NCBI GenBank assembly: GCA_023252195.1 | Contig: JAHEXI010000014.1 | Location: forward strand, 1-64,000 | DNA length: 64,000 nt | Source of the DNA: Pseudonocardiales bacterium | GTDB lineage: Bacteria; Actinomycetota; Actinomycetes; Mycobacteriales; Pseudonocardiaceae | Direction of reading: 5' to 3' | Shown: positions 22,110-31,872 of the stretch, in pieces | Position numbering within the stretch: position 1 is the first letter of the stretch | Layout: each line of letters begins with the position of its first letter | Notes under the pieces: generated by a model | Databases searched by the model: none | Told to the model about the DNA's origin: nothing | Seen by the model: the letters and a program-made list of their open reading frames with translations, nothing else | Made by a program: the position numbers and the translations under genes

Positions 22110-23466
22110 CAGGCCGGCGGTCGCAACGCTGGTCGGGACGGCATGCCGGTGTTCAAGGTAGTGCAGGCGTCGGTGCTGAGCGAGCGGCCGAGTTGCCGGA
22201 TGTTCCGGATGGGTCGGTGCTGGATGAGATCGTCCGGGAGAGCGCGCGGAAGATGCTGGCTGCGGCGCTGCGCGCGGAGGCTGATGGGTACGTCGACGCG
22301 CTGATTGGGGTGGTCGACGGGGTTGGGCATCGGAGGGTGGTGCGCAACGGCTATGCCGGGCCGCGCACGATCCTGTGCGGGGCGGGGGCGGTCGAGGTCC
22401 GCGCGCCCGGGTCAACGACAAGCGCGTCGATGAGGCCACTGGTGAGCGTAAGTGCTTCGCCTCGGCGATTCTGCCGGCGTGGTGTCGTAAGAGCCCGATG
22501 ATCAGCGAGGTATTGCCGTTGCTGTCCCTGCAGGGGCTGTCGACCATTGACTTTGGCCCGGCGTTGGGCCAGTTTCTGGGCTCGGATGCCGGCTTGTCCG
22601 CGTCGGTGATCACCAGGTTGACCGAGACCTGGAAGGGCGAGCAGCGCGCGTTTGCCGCCCGAGACCTCCCCGAGGTCGACTACGTCTATCTGTGGGCGGA
22701 CGGCATCCACGTCAACATCCGCTTGGAGGAGCACAAGCGGTGCCTGCTGGTGCTGATCGGGGTGCGCGCCGACGGGCGCAAGGAACTCATCGCGCTGACC
22801 GACGGGTACCGGGAGTCGGTCGAGTCGTGGGCGGATCTGTTGCGCGATGGTGCCCGGCGCGGGATGCGTGCCCCGGTGCTCGCCGTCGGGGACGGTGCGC
22901 TGGGGTTCTGGGGCGCGCTGCGCAAGGTCTTCCCCGAAGGGCGGGAGCAGAAATGCTGGTTTCACAAGATCGCTAATGTGCTCGGGGTGCTACCCAAGTC
23001 TGCGCATCCCGACGTGAAGAAAGCGCTGGCCGAGATCTGGAACGCCGAGGACAAGCGGCATGCCTACGACGCGGTCAAGGCCTTTGAGGCCGGCTATGGG
23101 GCCAAGTTCCCCAAGGTGGTCGCGAAGATCACCGGTGATCACGATGGGCTGCTGGCGTTTTATGATTTTCCTGCTGCGCACTGGGTTCACCTGCGCACTA
23201 CGAATCCCATTGAGTCGACCTTCGCGACGGTCAGGCACCGGACGAAGATCACCCGCGGGCCCGGTCCGCGGGCGGCGGGGTTGGCGATGGCGGTCAAGCT
23301 CATCGAGGCCGCGCAGGCACGGTGGCAGGCGGTCAACGCCCCGCAGCTGGTCACGCTGGTGCGCGCCGGCGCGGTCTTTGAGTCCGGCAAGCTCGTCGAA
23401 CGTGCCGATCAGTCAGGGAGCCCGACAGGCCCTGAACCCATCGGGGCTGACCGCGACGCCGCCTGA
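22110..23466 (+). pseudogene. IS256-family (Mutator) transposase with one frameshift
   Basis: The first frame carries the N-terminal part VLDEIVRESARKMLAAALRA and NGYAGPRTILCGAG. At about 22405 one base is missing and the rest continues from RVNDKRVDEATGERK. The DDE core is complete: YVYLWADGIHVNIR (D), APVLAVGDGALGFW (D) and NPIESTFATVRHRTK (E). Mutator-type transposases move by cut and paste with short target duplications. I did not identify its terminal repeats. Frameshift aside, it looks recent. Confidence 0.85.
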
Positions 23467-23617
23467 TCGGCGAGGGTTCGCCGCTCGTCCCGTCCACCGT
23501 ATCCCGCTGATTTATTGCTGCGCGATGCCCGCCGGCTCAGCGGCGTGGACGATGCGCTGACCGCGGAGATCTGGGCCAGCGGCTGGCTGGGGCAGGCATG
23601 GTTGAACGCACCCCGTC
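23467..23617. other. Short stretch with a possible protein scrap
   Basis: A plus-strand reading at about 23515-23600, DDALTAEIWASGWLG, resembles a motif of small actinobacterial proteins but has no start or end. It is probably debris between the transposon and the regulator fragment. Confidence 0.3.
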
Positions 23618-23974
23618 ATGACCGCATTCGAGCTGTGGGTACGCAGGAACCTGGCCGATCCTTTGCCCCTCAAGCAGGTAGCGGGAGCACTCGGCGTGAG
23701 CGAGCGAACCCTCCAGCGCGTCACCGCGTCGGTCGTTGGCATCTCTCCGATGGACTTCGTGCACGAAATCCGACTCGATCAGGCCACATTCCTGCTCCGC
23801 ACCACCACCATGTCCGCCGAGGCGATCACCCGCGCCGTCGGCTACCAGCACCTGGGAACCCTCAGAACACTCATTCGACGCCGCCATGGATCCACCCTCA
23901 CCGGCCTGCGATCAGGAGCTCACCACCGGCCGGAGAACACCCCACAGCCACTCCAAGGCACCAGCAGATCATGA
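23618..23974 (+). pseudogene. GlxA-type AraC-family regulator, C-terminal DNA-binding part
   Basis: The reading TAFELWVRRNLADPLPLKQV, LGVSERTLQRVTAS and TMSAEAITRAVGYQHLGTLR is the two-helix-turn-helix AraC domain. It is closely similar to the C-terminus of the intact regulator at 24473-25489. The N-terminal amidase-like domain is absent. It may be the other half of copy A at 17965-18425 (same strand, 5.2 kb apart) or the remains of a third copy. It cannot be a complete regulator. Confidence 0.75.
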
Positions 23975-24470
23975 ACCCAACCGCCAATGCTTGAGCTCAT
24001 CGAAGTCCATCGCCAGGACTGGGCCACCGAGGTCCGGGTCGGCACGCACAACCCGACCATGCAACGCTCGCAGCTCGCTTCCCGGCTCGATACCAAGCTC
24101 TGACACGAGCAACGCGTGCACGTCCCGGTACACCTGCAGGGCACCTGCCTGGCGCCCAGTGCGGTAGAGCGTGAGCATGTCCAACTGCTGCCACCGCTCC
24201 TGCAAGGGATGCAACCGGGTCAGCCTGACCAGCTCCGGCAGGACCTCAGCATGCCGCGCCAGCTCAAGATCCAGCGCGATGCGGTCCTGCAGCGCCAGCA
24301 GCCGCAGCGTCTCCAGTCGATTGCGCTCAGCGCTGACGTACTCACCCTTGGCCCCGCCCAGCGCATCGCCCGCCACAACGCAAGACCGGTCCGCCGTTCC
24401 CTGACCGCCTTGGAGCAGATCACCGCTGCACGTGCCGCGCGAGCACGTCTCCGGTCGAGGAGAACGTCGG
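23969..24470 (-). pseudogene. SARP/AfsR-type regulator, bacterial transcriptional activation domain fragment
   Basis: The minus-strand frames give SAERNRLETLRLLALQDRI, HPLQERWQQLDMLTLYRTGR, and VSELGIEPGSELRALHGRV. This is the TPR-like BTAD domain that follows the winged helix in SARP activators of secondary metabolism. The DNA-binding part is missing and a frame change separates an upstream piece (DVLLDRRRARAARA). Wedged between two copies of the GlxA-type regulator. Confidence 0.65.
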
Positions 24471-24472
24471 CG

Positions 24473-25489
24473 CTAGAAGGGTTCACGGCCGGGTGACGAC
24501 CGGACCTGCTGCGGGCTCCTCTCCGGCTGGTCGTGAGCTCCTGATCGCAGTCCGGCGAGGGTGGATCCGCGGCGGCGTCGGATGAGTGCTCTGAGGGTTC
24601 CGACGTGCTGGTAGCCGACGGCGCGGGCTATTGCCTCGGTGGACATGGTGGTCGTGCGGAGCAGGAATGTGGCCTGATCGAGTCGGATTTCGTGCACGAA
24701 GTCCATCGGGGACATGCCAACGACCGACGCGGTGACGCGCTGGAGGGTTCGCTCGCTCACGCCGAGTGCTCCCGCGATGCTCTTCAGGGGTAGAGGGTTG
24801 GCCAGGTTCCTGCGTACCCACAGCTCGAATGCGGTCAGGACGGGGTCCGCGCCGGCCAGCATGGAGGGGATGGCGAATGCTGCCTGCGAGGGACGGTCAC
24901 CGATGAGTAGGTGACGGCTCACCAGCTCTGCCAGGGCTGGGCTCTGTTGGCGCACGATCGACAGGGCGAGGTCGATGTGAGCGAAGGCCGCGCCTGCGGT
25001 GGTGACGCGACCGTCATGGATGAGCGTGGAGGTTTCGTTCAGCGAAACGGCCGGGTAACGCTTGCGAAACGCTGGCCCGAGCCACCAACTCGTCGTCGCG
25101 CGGCGACCGTCGAGCACACCTGATTCGGCGAGGAAGAACGTTCCTGTGCACGCCGCCGCGAGAGCAGTCCCCTCCTCGGCCATTGTCCTGATCCACGACA
25201 GCATCGGGTGGTCGGCAACGAGGCCGATCACGTGGTGGGACTCCTTGACGCCGGGGGCCGGCATGACCACGATGTCCGGCGCGGGCTTGAGTTCACGGGC
25301 CGGGGTCGTGTGGATGCGCAGCCCGTGCCCGGTCGTGACCGATTCACCGATCCCCGCGACCGTCACCTCGATCGGTGAGGGTGCACCGCAGACCTCGCTG
25401 CGCAGAGCATTGGCCGAGCTCAGCACATCAAGTACCACGCTCAGTCCCGAATCGAACATCCCGTCGGTGGTGAGGACAGCGACCTTCAT
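24473..25489 (-). CDS. GlxA-type AraC-family transcriptional regulator (intact copy B)
   Basis: 338 residues. The first 190 or so form a DJ-1/PfpI amidase-like domain: MKVAVLTTDGMFDSGLSVVL, then [13 protein letters not shown], and [20 protein letters not shown] with the cysteine of the nucleophile elbow. The last 110 residues are two AraC helix-turn-helices (LGVSERTLQRVTAS, TMSTEAIARAVGYQHVGTLR). It is divergent from the ABM-lactonase pair and probably controls it through the palindrome at 25509-25524. The start at ATG 25487-25489 matches copy A; no clear ribosome site precedes it. Confidence 0.85.
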   Translation of the reverse strand: MKVAVLTTDGMFDSGLSVVLDVLSSANALRSEVCGAPSPIEVTVAGIGESVTTGHGLRIHTTPARELKPAPDIVVMPAPGVKESHHVIGLVADHPMLSWIRTMAEEGTALAAACTGTFFLAESGVLDGRRATTSWWLGPAFRKRYPAVSLNETSTLIHDGRVTTAGAAFAHIDLALSIVRQQSPALAELVSRHLLIGDRPSQAAFAIPSMLAGADPVLTAFELWVRRNLANPLPLKSIAGALGVSERTLQRVTASVVGMSPMDFVHEIRLDQATFLLRTTTMSTEAIARAVGYQHVGTLRALIRRRRGSTLAGLRSGAHDQPERSPQQVRSSPGREPF

Positions 25490-25508
25490 GTCGGAAACGG
25501 TACTCAAT

Positions 25509-25524
25509 GTGGCGTCTACGCCAC
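25509..25524. promoter_or_regulatory. Palindrome between regulator copy B and ABM copy B
   Basis: GTGGCGT-CT-ACGCCAC keeps the seven-base arms seen at 17930-17945, with the same distance and orientation to both genes. It is the best candidate operator of the GlxA-type regulator. Confidence 0.7.
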
Positions 25525-25583
25525 TATTCCCTGGCTGCAATTTTACCTAACGTGCGTACCAACGGCTACGGAAGGGAACCGTC

Positions 25584-26979: not shown

Positions 26980-27190
26980 ATGCTCGAACTGTTTGGCCCC
27001 GTACTGAGCACCGAGCTCGCGGTGGCCGTGGTGACTGTGCCTGCTGGGCTGGTACTGGGCCGGGGCATCGCGCAGCAAGTGACCCGGCAGCGGGAGGCCC
27101 GCGCCCGGGATCGGGCGGCCGAATCAGCGCGACGCGAACTGGTCGCCTGGATCAGTCACGACCTGCGCACCCCACTGGGCTTCCTGGTAG
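26980..27190 (+). pseudogene. Sensor histidine kinase fragment (HisKA)
   Basis: A short reading MLELFGPVLSTELAVAVVTV has one membrane helix and then RRELVAWISHDLRTPLGFL, the phospho-accepting H-box of a sensor kinase. It breaks off right after the H-box and no ATPase domain follows. Six bases separate it from the lactonase stop, so it is a fusion scar at the end of that operon. Confidence 0.7.
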
Positions 27191-27404
27191 TAAGCGCCGA
27201 AATACCAACGGTCTGCCTCGTTTACGCAGGTCACGGTTGTTACAGTTCGCCGTCGCGCACCCCGCCGCGGCGGTGTCAATCGAACCGTCTGAGCAGCGCA
27301 ACCGGTGTAAATCGATGGTTTTTCTCTGGAAGCTACGGGGAGGCCCTAAGGAGGCAAGGAGCGGCGATGGTATCGGCCGACTCCGCGCGGAGAGGTTGCG
27401 GTCG

Positions 27405-29270
27405 GTGTCTGACACGGGTCTCTCCACAGTGAACTCAGCGCGGATACCGTCCACGGACCGTGGCGACGACGGTACGGGACTGGCCTGGCGCCTGTGTGGT
27501 GGTGCCGTGGTCGGAGTCGTGGCCGGGCTCCCGGTAGGTGCTCTACTGACCTATCAGGGCATGCTCGCCGATCGCGGCGCGGGTGTGGTGCCCGCGTGGC
27601 TGGTGTATCTCGTCTCGGTGGCGGGGGTCGGGGCGGTGATCGGTCTCATTGTGGGGTATCGGCCCCGTGCTCTGGCCTCGGCCTCGTCGGGAGGCGTGCT
27701 GGTCGGTCTGCTCGGTTGGTTGCTGTGGTCGCTCACCGTGGACCCCGTACTCCGCGGGCAGCTGCCGACCTGGTCGATCGATGCCGCCGCCGGGTCGTAC
27801 CGGGGACTCGTCGCGGACCTGTTGCAGGGTGGTCTGGCCGGGGCGCTGTGGCAGAGCTTGGCCACGGTGGTGGCGCGGCGACGGCCGGGACGGACACTAC
27901 GCGAGCGGGCCGACCGGCCGAGGGTGGTCATCGTCGGTGGTGGCTTCGCCGGGGTTGGCGCAGCCCGGCGTTTTGAGCGCCTCGCCGTGCGGGCCGGGTC
28001 GCCGGACGTGACGCTGATCAGCGACTCGAACTTTCTGCTGTTCACGCCGATGCTGGCCGAAGCCGCGTCGGGGGCCTTGGAGCCGGCGGCCATCAGCGCG
28101 CCAGTCCGTTCGGCGGCCGGGCATACCCGCTTCTACCAGGGCACCGTCGAGGACATCGACACCGACACGCGTACCGTCCGGGTGGTGACCGATGGCGAGG
28201 TTCAGCTCATCGTCTACGACCAGCTCGTGCTGGCAGTCGGCTCTGTTCCCCGCTTCCTCGAACTCCCTGGCGTGGAAGATCATGCGTTCACGTTGAAGAG
28301 TCTCGCTGACGCGACCCGTCTGCGAAATCATGTATTGACGGTGCTCGAACGATCCGATCGCCTGCAACCCGGTGAGGAGCGCAGCCGGTTGCTCACCTTT
28401 GTGGTGGCAGGCGGCGGCTTCGCCGGCACTGAGATCGTTGCTGAGCTGTTCGATCTGGTGCATGGGGTCTCACATTTCTACCCGAGCATCGTGCCGGATG
28501 AGCCCCGGTTCGTCCTGGTGCATTCCGGACAACTCATCCTGCCGGAGCTGTCCGCGGAGCTGGGCGCGTACGCGCTGGGGCGGTTGCGCGCCCGCGGGAT
28601 CGAGTTCCGCCTCGGCGAGCGGGTGACCGAGGCCAGCTCGCGGGACGTCTCGCTGAGCGACGGGACACTGATCCCGACGGCCACATTCGTATGGACCGCC
28701 GGGAACCGGCCAAGTCCGCTGGTGGAAAAGGTGAGCGGGGAGCACGCCCGCGGCGCGCTGGTCACCGATCCTATGCTGCGTGTGCCGGGTTTGGAGGGGG
28801 TGTGGGCGGTCGGGGATTGCGCGCGGATCCCGGACCCGGCCAACGACGGAGCCGCCTATCCGCCGACTGCACAGCACGCCCTGCGTCAAGGCAAAGTCGT
28901 GGCCGACAACATCACCGCCGTGTTGGCCGGTCGCTCGCCGGAGGCGTTCCGGTTCAGCACGATCGGGGTGCTCGTCGCACTCGGACACCGCACCGCCGCC
29001 GCCGAGATCCGCGGCCACCGGTTCTCCGGGTTGGCTGCCTGGGTGATGTGGCGCGGCATCTACCTGGCCAAGCTCCCCGGCGCGGAGAAACGCGTCCGGG
29101 TGTTCCTGGACTGGCTGCTGGACCTGGCTTTTCCCCGCGACATCGTGATCACCGACGCCGAGCCACCCGATCCCGTGCCCCAGCGCCTCACACGGGCAAG
29201 GACGGAACACCGACAGACGGTGCCAAGCGCACAGCCGAACTCCGCGGACGGCGGACATGAAGCTCGTTAA
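27405..29270 (+). CDS. Type II NADH dehydrogenase with N-terminal membrane domain
   Basis: 621 residues. After a short lead, three or four membrane helices (about residues 28-170) precede a complete NDH-2-like flavoprotein: RVVIVGGGFAGVGAARRFE (FAD site), FVVAGGGFAGTEIVAELFD (NADH site), FVWTAGNRPSPLVEK and GVWAVGDCARIPDPAND. NDH-2 enzymes pass electrons from NADH to quinone without pumping protons and normally attach only peripherally. The added helices should anchor this one and could contact a partner. The GTG at 27405 has GGAGAGG nine bases upstream. The next gene overlaps its stop by 14 bases, pointing to a joint complex. Confidence 0.85.
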   Translation: MSDTGLSTVNSARIPSTDRGDDGTGLAWRLCGGAVVGVVAGLPVGALLTYQGMLADRGAGVVPAWLVYLVSVAGVGAVIGLIVGYRPRALASASSGGVLVGLLGWLLWSLTVDPVLRGQLPTWSIDAAAGSYRGLVADLLQGGLAGALWQSLATVVARRRPGRTLRERADRPRVVIVGGGFAGVGAARRFERLAVRAGSPDVTLISDSNFLLFTPMLAEAASGALEPAAISAPVRSAAGHTRFYQGTVEDIDTDTRTVRVVTDGEVQLIVYDQLVLAVGSVPRFLELPGVEDHAFTLKSLADATRLRNHVLTVLERSDRLQPGEERSRLLTFVVAGGGFAGTEIVAELFDLVHGVSHFYPSIVPDEPRFVLVHSGQLILPELSAELGAYALGRLRARGIEFRLGERVTEASSRDVSLSDGTLIPTATFVWTAGNRPSPLVEKVSGEHARGALVTDPMLRVPGLEGVWAVGDCARIPDPANDGAAYPPTAQHALRQGKVVADNITAVLAGRSPEAFRFSTIGVLVALGHRTAAAEIRGHRFSGLAAWVMWRGIYLAKLPGAEKRVRVFLDWLLDLAFPRDIVITDAEPPDPVPQRLTRARTEHRQTVPSAQPNSADGGHEAR

Positions 29271-30657
29271 GCGACTGCGCCGTGATGCTGTCTCCGGTGC
29301 TCTGGCTGGCCTGGCGGGAGGTGTGGTCTTCGGTGTGGCGATGGGCCTGGTCGGGACCTTGCCAAGTGTCGCGCAGATCGTGCGCAGCAACTCTCCCGCA
29401 ATCGGCTTCGCGCTGCACATGATCATCGCAGCCATCATTGGCGCGGGATTCGGGCTGCTCGTGGCCAACCAGCAGCTACGTGCCGGCGAGACGCTGTTCT
29501 GGGGTCTGATCTACGGCACCTTCTGGTGGTTCCTCGGAGCGCAAACCTTGCTGCCGATCCTCGCTGGCCGGCCGCTGGCTTGGGATCTTGCCGGCGCTGA
29601 GCAGCTGTTCCCGAGCTTGATTGGGCATCTGTTCTACGGCGGTGTCACCGCCGTGGTGTTCGTGGCCCTTCGCCGCGGTGTTGTTGTGCCACCACAGCCA
29701 CGGCTGGGCCCGCTCCTGCGAGGCCTGTCGGCCGGCCTCATGGTCGCCGGAGCGCTGTACCTCCTGGCCGGTGCCGCGCTGAACCCGCTCGTGGTGATCG
29801 GCGCCCTCGCCGGCGCCGGCTACCCGCTGTTGTTCGGTACTGTGCGGGAAAAGTCTGGACCAGCGCTGGTCCGCGGTACGGTCTACGGCTTCCTGATCTG
29901 GGTGCTCGAGCTGACCGTGGGACCCCTACTGGCCGGCGCGGCCCCGAGTTGGTCCCACGATGCCGCAGCCGCCGCGGTGCACAACCTGCCCCCGTCGGTC
30001 CTGCTCGGTGCCGGCATCGCGGTGGTCTTCGGCTGGCTGGGCGCTCTGGCCCGGGGGTTGTTTGTGGATGACATCCGCACCGTGCACCGGGAGGCGCCAG
30101 GCGGTTGGGGCCTGCGCGCACTAGGCTCCGGCGCGCTGGCCGGCCTGGCCGGAGGTGTGGTGTTTACCGCCGTCCTGGCGGTAGTGGGCGCCCTACCCCG
30201 GGTCGCGCAGATCATGGGCTCGCAGGCACCCCCGGCCGGCCTGGTGGTGAACCTGATCATCGCGCTGGTGATCGGTGTGACCTACGCGCTGATGTTCCGG
30301 CGCAGCAGCTTCGACCTCGTCTCGGGTGTCGGCTGGGGAGCCTGCTACGGATTCTTCTGGTGGGTGTTGGGCCCCTTGACATTGCTGCCCGCCCTCACCG
30401 GCGTCACCCCGCGGTGGGACCCTGCGGCGATCGCGAACGCCTTTCCCGCCCTTGTCGGGCTCCTCGCGTACGGGGCCGCATTGGGATCGACCTACTACCT
30501 ACTCGAAGCCCGCGCAAACCCGTGGTGGGTCACCCGCAACCAGGCCGAGACCGACCGTGTCCTCGCCCAACGCAGCCAAACCCTCGGCTCCGCACCAGCC
30601 TTGTGGGGGCTGACCGTCCTGATCGCATTGACCATCCCACTGCTGGCGGCCAGCTGA
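29257..30657 (+). CDS. Internally duplicated polytopic membrane protein, coupled to the NADH dehydrogenase
   Basis: 466 residues with about a dozen membrane helices. Two similar units are visible: residues about 12-130 (GALAGLAGGVVFGVAMGLVG, WGLIYGTFWWFLGAQTLLP) and about 296-415 (GALAGLAGGVVFTAVLAVVG, WGACYGFFWWVLGPLTLLP), each ending in a W-D...FP...YG pattern. Such internal repeats are typical of transporters and channels. Its start lies within the end of the dehydrogenase gene. A role in quinone access, ion flow or scaffolding of that enzyme is plausible but unproven. No known family is recognised. Confidence 0.75.
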   Translation: MKLVKRLRRDAVSGALAGLAGGVVFGVAMGLVGTLPSVAQIVRSNSPAIGFALHMIIAAIIGAGFGLLVANQQLRAGETLFWGLIYGTFWWFLGAQTLLPILAGRPLAWDLAGAEQLFPSLIGHLFYGGVTAVVFVALRRGVVVPPQPRLGPLLRGLSAGLMVAGALYLLAGAALNPLVVIGALAGAGYPLLFGTVREKSGPALVRGTVYGFLIWVLELTVGPLLAGAAPSWSHDAAAAAVHNLPPSVLLGAGIAVVFGWLGALARGLFVDDIRTVHREAPGGWGLRALGSGALAGLAGGVVFTAVLAVVGALPRVAQIMGSQAPPAGLVVNLIIALVIGVTYALMFRRSSFDLVSGVGWGACYGFFWWVLGPLTLLPALTGVTPRWDPAAIANAFPALVGLLAYGAALGSTYYLLEARANPWWVTRNQAETDRVLAQRSQTLGSAPALWGLTVLIALTIPLLAAS

Positions 30658-31116: not shown

Positions 31117-31288
31117 GCACTGTTGCATTGAGGCAAAGGGCGTACCCGCCGTGGCCCAAAGCAGCAAAACAGGCCCTACCAGCCCCGTAGATAACTATGA
31201 TAAATCGGGCATCTGAGTCTTGGGCGAGGGCCTCTGGACGGACCGATGAGATCAGCTTGAGCGGGCCGATCCCTCAATGCAACAGTGC
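31117..31288. mobile_element. 172-bp IS6-end-like MITE, copy 2
   Basis: Begins GCACTGTTGCATTGAGGC and ends CCCTCAATGCAACAGTGC. By eye it is the exact reverse complement of copy 1 at 20304-20475. Its right flank is GCAAAAACT followed by the 3' part of the GH15 gene. The same nine bases flank the broken GH15 end beside copy 1, as expected for the target duplication of the original insertion. Confidence 0.9.
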
Positions 31289-31872
31289 GCAAAAACTTCC
31301 TGTACTCGCGGTTGATGTGCTGGGTGGCCATCGAACGGGCCATGCGCATGGCCCGCCACCGGGGCCTGCCCGCCGAGCTGGGGCGCTGGGGGGCTGCCCG
31401 GGATGCGATCTACTACCAGATCATGCGCCGCGGCTGGTCGCCCACCCGGCAGGCGTTCGTCCAGCATGAAGACGACGATGTCCTCGACGCCGCAGTGTTG
31501 ATGATGCCCATGGCCAAATTCATCTCCCCGACCGACCCCAAATGGCTGGCCACCCTGGAGACGCTCACCGCCGAGCTGGTGTCCGATTCCCTGGTCTACC
31601 GCTACGACCCCCGAGCCAGCCCAGATGGCCTCCGCGGAGAAGAGGGCACTTTCTCCTTGTGCTCGTTTTGGTACGTCGAGGCACTCTCCCTCGCCGGGAG
31701 GCTGGAGGAAGCTCGGCTGGCCTTCGAGAAGATGCTGACCTACGCCTACCACCTCGGCCTGTATGCCGAGGAGATTAGCCGCGCCGGGGAACAGCAGGGC
31801 AACTTCCCCCAGGCCTTTACCCACCTGGCGTTGATCAGCGCCGCGTTCACCCTCGACCGCGCGCTCGGCTGA
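31289..31872 (+). pseudogene. GH15 family hydrolase, 3' part
   Basis: Beginning in frame at RKNFLYSRLMCWVAIERAMR, this encodes the last 190 or so residues of a bacterial GH15 protein: RRGWSPTRQAFVQHEDDD, DSLVYRYDPRASPDGL, GEEGTFSLCSFWYVEAL and a normal stop. The segment EEGTF carries the catalytic-base glutamate region. It continues exactly where the 5' part at 20476-21710 stops (GGRKN). Reading is clean, so the split is recent and caused by rearrangement. Confidence 0.9.

Follow-up and report, generated by a model that had tools for sequence, protein, structure and literature searches.

A probable two-part NADH-oxidising membrane complex combining an NDH-2 head with YagU-type membrane units

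Two overlapping genes in the window (the whole 64,000-nucleotide stretch of Pseudonocardiales DNA analysed here) probably encode an undescribed two-part, NADH-oxidising membrane complex. P0001 carries an NDH-2 redox head behind a membrane unit of its own, and P0002 is built of three further units of the same type; judged from profile comparisons, the module is one redox head plus four copies of a single membrane unit, split 1 + 3 over the two genes (Table 1). We consider it reasonably likely that the pair acts as a membrane-integral, two-subunit, non-pumping NADH:menaquinone oxidoreductase, with the four YagU-type units as its membrane body. The usual view of NDH-2, also treated as a drug target, is that of a simple, single-subunit, peripheral entry point for electrons. 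This picture is broken by a module, conserved in at least four phyla, whose NDH-2 is integrated into the membrane and has a subunit dedicated to it. Moreover, the module links the uncharacterised DUF1440/YagU family to a definite redox enzyme and so opens the family's function to testing.

The gene pair and its distribution

Both reading frames lie where an earlier note, made from this sequence alone, had put them (27405-30657), and the stop of P0001 is indeed overlapped by a 466-residue protein: the P0002 ATG sits 14 nt inside the P0001 gene, giving a stop/start overlap of 14 nt. The same note had proposed co-occurrence of the two families as a check on their pairing, and this proved to be near-total. 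A scan with P0001 alone, taking one genome per species, found 35 loci, distributed over Pseudonocardia, Kutzneria, Actinophytocola, Kibdelosporangium, Actinomadura, Amycolatopsis, Chloroflexota, Acidobacteriota, Acidimicrobiales and Planctomycetota. Further loci came from 396 Actinomycetota genomes that had been sampled evenly, and a short, frame-broken match in Streptomyces dysideae (L089) was left out of the counts. The 48 fused loci span four phyla (Actinomycetota, Chloroflexota, Acidobacteriota and Planctomycetota), and the three-unit partner lies directly downstream in 47 of the 48 fused-NDH-2 loci with downstream sequence, a count that includes partners seen only by their start at contig ends; the overlap of the two genes is 4 nt in 32 of the fused loci and 1 nt in 6. 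Recurrence on this scale puts the pairing far beyond chance. The single exception (L121, G334:C133) is a diverged extra copy of the fused NDH-2; its genome also carries a complete pair at another place, and since no partner adjoins L121 the head may work alone there. Conversely, none of the three-unit partners in the 396 Actinomycetota genomes was demonstrably apart from a fused NDH-2; one of them, in G560, sits at a contig edge with its upstream gene out of view.

The fused NDH-2s are united in a single clade, set off by a branch with support 97/92. Three candidates for other N-terminally extended NDH-2s (L041, L043, L052) were rejected, their extensions being devoid of any hydrophobic segment and resembling a spurious upstream reading frame. 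Evolutionary distances among the NDH-2 cores are closely matched by those among the partners (r = 0.95, and r = 0.96 for unit D against the partner, with 0 of 2000 permutations reaching the observed correlation), which is a mark of co-inheritance rather than contact, shared ancestry alone being enough to give a high correlation.

Within the Actinomycetota the pair is patchy (11 of 396 sampled genomes). The genome that carries P0001 and P0002 also encodes complex I, plus another NDH-2 that lacks the membrane domain, so the pair is an additional enzyme, and its patchy distribution fits a role under special conditions. Across lineages we found no conserved neighbour other than the partner; a larger conserved operon was considered and rejected, the neighbours held in common being confined to closely related Chloroflexota or Actinomadura.

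Table 1. Coordinates of the gene pair and its features in the window
Feature	Position	Strand	Description
P0001	27405..29270	+	NDH-2 with N-terminal membrane unit, 621 aa; start GTG 27405 or 27429
Unit D (aa 24-160 of P0001)	27474..27884	+	Four-helix YagU-like membrane unit; AlphaFold helices, hhalign homology to A, B and C
NDH-2 core (aa 171-582 of P0001)	27915..29150	+	Two dinucleotide-binding domains and NDH2_C; Pfam, Z 44 to 4NWZ
Quinone-site motif AQHALR (aa 489-494 of P0001)	28869..28886	+	AQxAxR variant; sequence, conservation in 42 relatives
P0002	29257..30657	+	Partner, three YagU-like units and a C-terminal helix, 466 aa, ATG start
Unit A (aa 8-142 of P0002)	29278..29682	+	His pair intact
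His54 of P0002	29416..29418	+	Helix 2 member of His pair; 84% His in family
His124 of P0002	29626..29628	+	Helix 4 member of His pair, motif SLxGHLxYG; 80% His in family
Unit B (aa 148-272 of P0002)	29698..30072	+	Diverged; without His pair
Unit C (aa 284-424 of P0002)	30106..30528	+	Both family histidines replaced: N332 (AAC, 30250-30252), L402 (CTC, 30460-30462)
C-terminal helix (aa 429-464 of P0002)	30541..30648	+	Conserved APALW motif; possibly a thirteenth membrane helix

An NDH-2 head and four related membrane units

That P0001 is an NDH-2, as the earlier note had recognised, is well supported. Residues 173-579 match the Pfam families Pyr_redox_2 (E 2e-46) and NDH2_C (E 1.4e-6; 28.8 bits against a cut-off of 27.7), the latter indicating that the C-terminal membrane-interacting module is present, and both the NDH-2 domains and this module were found in all 42 relatives scanned. 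Among solved chains P0001 is closest to those of NDH-2. Structural comparison of its head with Caldalkalibacillus thermarum NDH-2 (4NWZ) gave Z 44.0 and rmsd 2.2 over 387 residues, and the head fold is shared with canonical NDH-2s in general (4NWZ, 5NA1 and the mycobacterial 9MQY; Z 41-44 over 385-415 residues), as are the FAD and NAD sites, the quinone motif and the C-terminal amphipathic module. The best structural match of all is the NDH-2 chain of Bacillus subtilis YjlC-YjlD (9A63; Z 45.1), where an NDH-2 has been modelled with a partner. The catalytic NDH-2 positions of P0001 are intact: the Gly-rich FAD and NAD motifs of the core are invariant or nearly so among relatives, and in the AQHALR motif A489 and Q490 are invariant, with A492 and R494 conserved in at least 90% of the 42 relatives. 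The AQxAxR form of the quinone motif has been reported in 15 % of NDH-2s, in a family-wide analysis from which fused-domain members were expressly excluded (PMC5299459). Motif and fold together suggest a quinone as the electron acceptor, presumably menaquinone in these lineages.

In front of this head the AlphaFold model of the joined pair has four helices (aa 24-50, 61-83, 90-116 and 132-159), which favours the higher number of the three or four N-terminal helices in the earlier note. The segment that follows helix 4, ARRRPGRTLRER, is strongly positive, which by the positive-inside rule places the head on the predicted cytoplasmic side. At the helix ends of P0002, 20 Lys/Arg residues are predicted inside versus 4 outside.

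The partner had been read in the earlier note as two similar multi-helix units. Such a duplicated two-unit protein is ruled out by profile-profile comparison, which resolves three mutually related four-helix units, A, B and C (hhalign E 1e-30 to 7e-44), B being a diverged copy. Unit D of P0001 is in turn homologous to all three (hhalign probability 99.4-99.7 %, E 1e-21 to 1e-26), and in one relative (L118) units D and C can be aligned even by BLAST (E 1e-19). The note had overlooked that the membrane domain of the NDH-2 is a fourth copy of the unit in P0002. All the complete pairs that we aligned have the same 1 + 3 unit count. Gly, Trp and Pro make up most of the invariant membrane positions, which are retained even in diverged units; in unit D they are G101, W105, P114 and W123, the first three making up a motif of the third membrane helix. 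In an early-branching clade (L113, L114, L115, L122 and L082-L084) it is the first partner unit that has diverged and not the second, so the degenerating unit differs between lineages.

The family to which these units belong is DUF1440/YagU (PF07274). P0002 passes the curated DUF1440 cut-off (35.7 bits against 34.7); in the genome-level search its stretch scored 23.6 bits, below the cut-off; 39 of 40 P0002 relatives match the family at E 0.01. Unit D gave no direct match to PF07274 in 42 members and is linked to it only via the units of P0002. A Pfam scan of P0002 at E up to 1 returned DUF1440 as the sole match, with no EetB (PF07456), antiporter or pump family. YagU of Escherichia coli shares the unit type and a pair of histidines with P0002, but it consists of one unit, whereas P0002 has three in one chain, with a diverged fourth fused to NDH-2, and several units of the NDH-2 module lack the histidine pair.

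Conserved histidines and predicted structures

The family alignment contains no conserved acidic residue inside the cores of the membrane helices, and the conserved Arg of the membrane part lie near predicted cytoplasmic helix ends. Besides these Arg, conservation of ionisable residues deep in the helices is limited to two histidines, one in helix 2 and one in helix 4. Across 182 units the pair is mostly inherited whole or not at all (both in 90, neither in 81, one only in 11; kinship among the sequences inflates any p-value for these counts), and both histidines occur in every single-unit relative aligned as well as in E. coli YagU. In the P0002 model helices 2 and 4 run parallel and each histidine lies 6-7 residues in from the predicted outer end, so the two probably sit at matching depth, close to the outer face. 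Modules have from 0 to 3 intact pairs, most of them two or three; the pair of unit C is nearly always intact, while D and B are usually without one.

The window departs from this pattern, with a single intact pair, in unit A, and none in units B, C and D. His402 is present in 45 of 46 family members, the window being the sole exception; it is also the only one of the 46 with neither unit C histidine, N332 and L402 each standing one base from a His codon. Elsewhere, one genome has an additional complete pair (L119, G550:C15) in which every unit lacks the full His pair; it is possibly a specialised copy.

P0002 is modelled by AlphaFold with good scores (pLDDT 89.6, pTM 0.90). The joined pair was modelled as a single chain, P0001 being run into P0002 by a one-base slip (AGGA) at 29199, with alignment A8; alignments A3, A4 and A7, in which unit D was misaligned with the P0002 units, were discarded. 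The resulting model has a pLDDT of 81.7 and a pTM of 0.63, a whole-chain score given without an error matrix. Set against our own rough estimate of a pTM of ~0.5 for two well-folded, unplaced halves of these sizes, this score is at most a hint of some relative placement of the two proteins, short of a shared interface. We found no sequence similarity of P0002 to any solved chain, and its structural matches in the PDB are poor: the best Foldseek E is 0.1 and the best VIA Z is 5.9, the hits being low-scoring ties with parts of MmpL, ClC and other proteins. Such matches lend no support to a transporter fold, nor do they speak for or against a new one.

Possible functions of the module

In the reading we favour, a physical complex of the two proteins would have its NDH-2 head on the cytoplasmic face, where NADH would be oxidised via FAD and the electrons passed to quinone. 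The head would be held not only by its amphipathic C-terminal helices but by four YagU-type units, its own N-terminal one and the three of the partner. To judge from the 1 + 3 unit count, these most likely assemble as a pseudo-tetrameric membrane body that would fix the head and shape the access of quinone, and the reaction is expected to be non-pumping. What the earlier note had called a built-in NADH:quinone module with a transporter-like, possibly ion-coupled partner is thus supported in part: the module is, and near-total co-occurrence gives it an obligate-looking membrane partner, while its transporter-like and ion-coupled attributes find no support. P0002 is a DUF1440/YagU protein, with no match to a known transporter or antiporter family and no convincing match to a solved transporter fold, and no acidic residue is conserved inside its helices.

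Two known systems offer comparisons. The flavin-based extracellular electron transfer of Listeria and Lactiplantibacillus employs a specialised Ndh2 with the dedicated membrane partners EetA, EetB and PplA (PMC9888254), and P0001 is likewise set apart by a dedicated membrane partner. However, EetB belongs to PF07456 (PMC9973259) and P0002 to DUF1440, and conservation of the gene neighbourhood across lineages stops at the pair. Canonical NDH-2s, for their part, are described as monotopic, single-subunit enzymes (PMC5220320); P0001, in contrast, has four predicted membrane helices and a conserved partner gene whose product has 12-13. YjlC, the partner of the B. subtilis enzyme, is a different, non-YagU protein. 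Each part of the module belongs to a known family, whereas our search of open-access papers turned up neither the combination nor its 1 + 3 architecture nor its conservation. This is in keeping with the earlier note's suggestion that the complex may be previously undescribed: we found no account in those papers of a membrane-fused NDH-2 with such a partner, and none of the open-access papers naming DUF1440 concerns its function, judged by their titles and abstracts.

The histidines suggest a different possibility, that of a transmembrane electron conduit in which the pairs, lying near the outer face, would bind a haem or metal, with NDH-2 electrons crossing to an extracytoplasmic acceptor. Their about equal depth in co-directional helices, their tendency to be kept or lost together, their presence in all the single-unit relatives and the two or three pairs retained in most modules are all as such a conduit would have them. 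Against this, the number of intact pairs falls as low as zero, no cofactor family was recognised, and the window has one pair at one depth, which makes a chain of cofactors across the membrane unlikely there; we regard a conduit as unlikely overall. A broader proposal, that the four units are a membrane machine driven by NADH oxidation, in which the His pairs carry protons or bind haem or metal, is in our view similarly doubtful; if true, it would provide a coupled, or electron-passing, NDH-2 and the first molecular function for DUF1440.

A strictly ion-coupled NADH:quinone oxidoreductase, in which the NDH-2 reaction drives ions along a path formed by the four units, would account for a multi-helix partner being retained with the enzyme over four phyla. 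Moreover, E. coli YagU is induced by external acid (PMC2270276) and needed for full survival at pH 2 (19 % vs 70 %; PMC1626474), which could point to proton handling and is, by analogy, the only physiological hint that we found on the role of the unit. Yet the helix cores have no conserved acidic residue, the conserved Arg are near the predicted cytoplasmic ends and no antiporter or pump family is matched. NDH-2 chemistry itself is, in addition, regarded as non-pumping, and we consider ion coupling improbable.

The acid phenotype, being the only one found for YagU, could also be taken to mean that the NDH-2 reaction tunes an envelope-stress membrane protein, and not the reverse, the module being a redox- or pH-controlled sensor or channel; the Crp/FNR-type regulators near several single-unit genes would suit such a role. 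We give this little credence: conservation is strict for the catalytic NDH-2 features and exceeds that of the membrane part, and the fused pair has no conserved regulator next to it. Finally, that the units merely tether NDH-2, with no specific function and a neighbourhood of operon convenience, agrees with the erosion of the His pairs in some members, the window included, but is very improbable, given that one helix would suffice while 16 helices with invariant Gly, Trp and Pro have been retained and that both proteins diverge in step.

A few observations concern the surroundings of these genes. In the Actinomycetota, Crp/FNR-type regulators lie near single-unit DUF1440 genes at L126, L128, L140, L141 and L144 (more weakly at L131 and L133), which may be a hint of what the family does. 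Downstream of the pair in the window lies a truncated GH15 glycosidase, represented by its C-terminal half (31285-31872), and GH15 genes also occur near single-unit DUF1440 genes in four loci (L131, L138, L139 and L144). On the upstream side, a histidine kinase fragment matching the first 25 HisKA positions only (26980-27432) abuts the NDH-2 gene and is probably what remains of a lost gene. Further upstream (22375-23466 and 23515-25540), a Mutator-family transposase adjoins partial and complete copies of an AraC/DJ-1-type regulator gene, which suggests a recent rearrangement.
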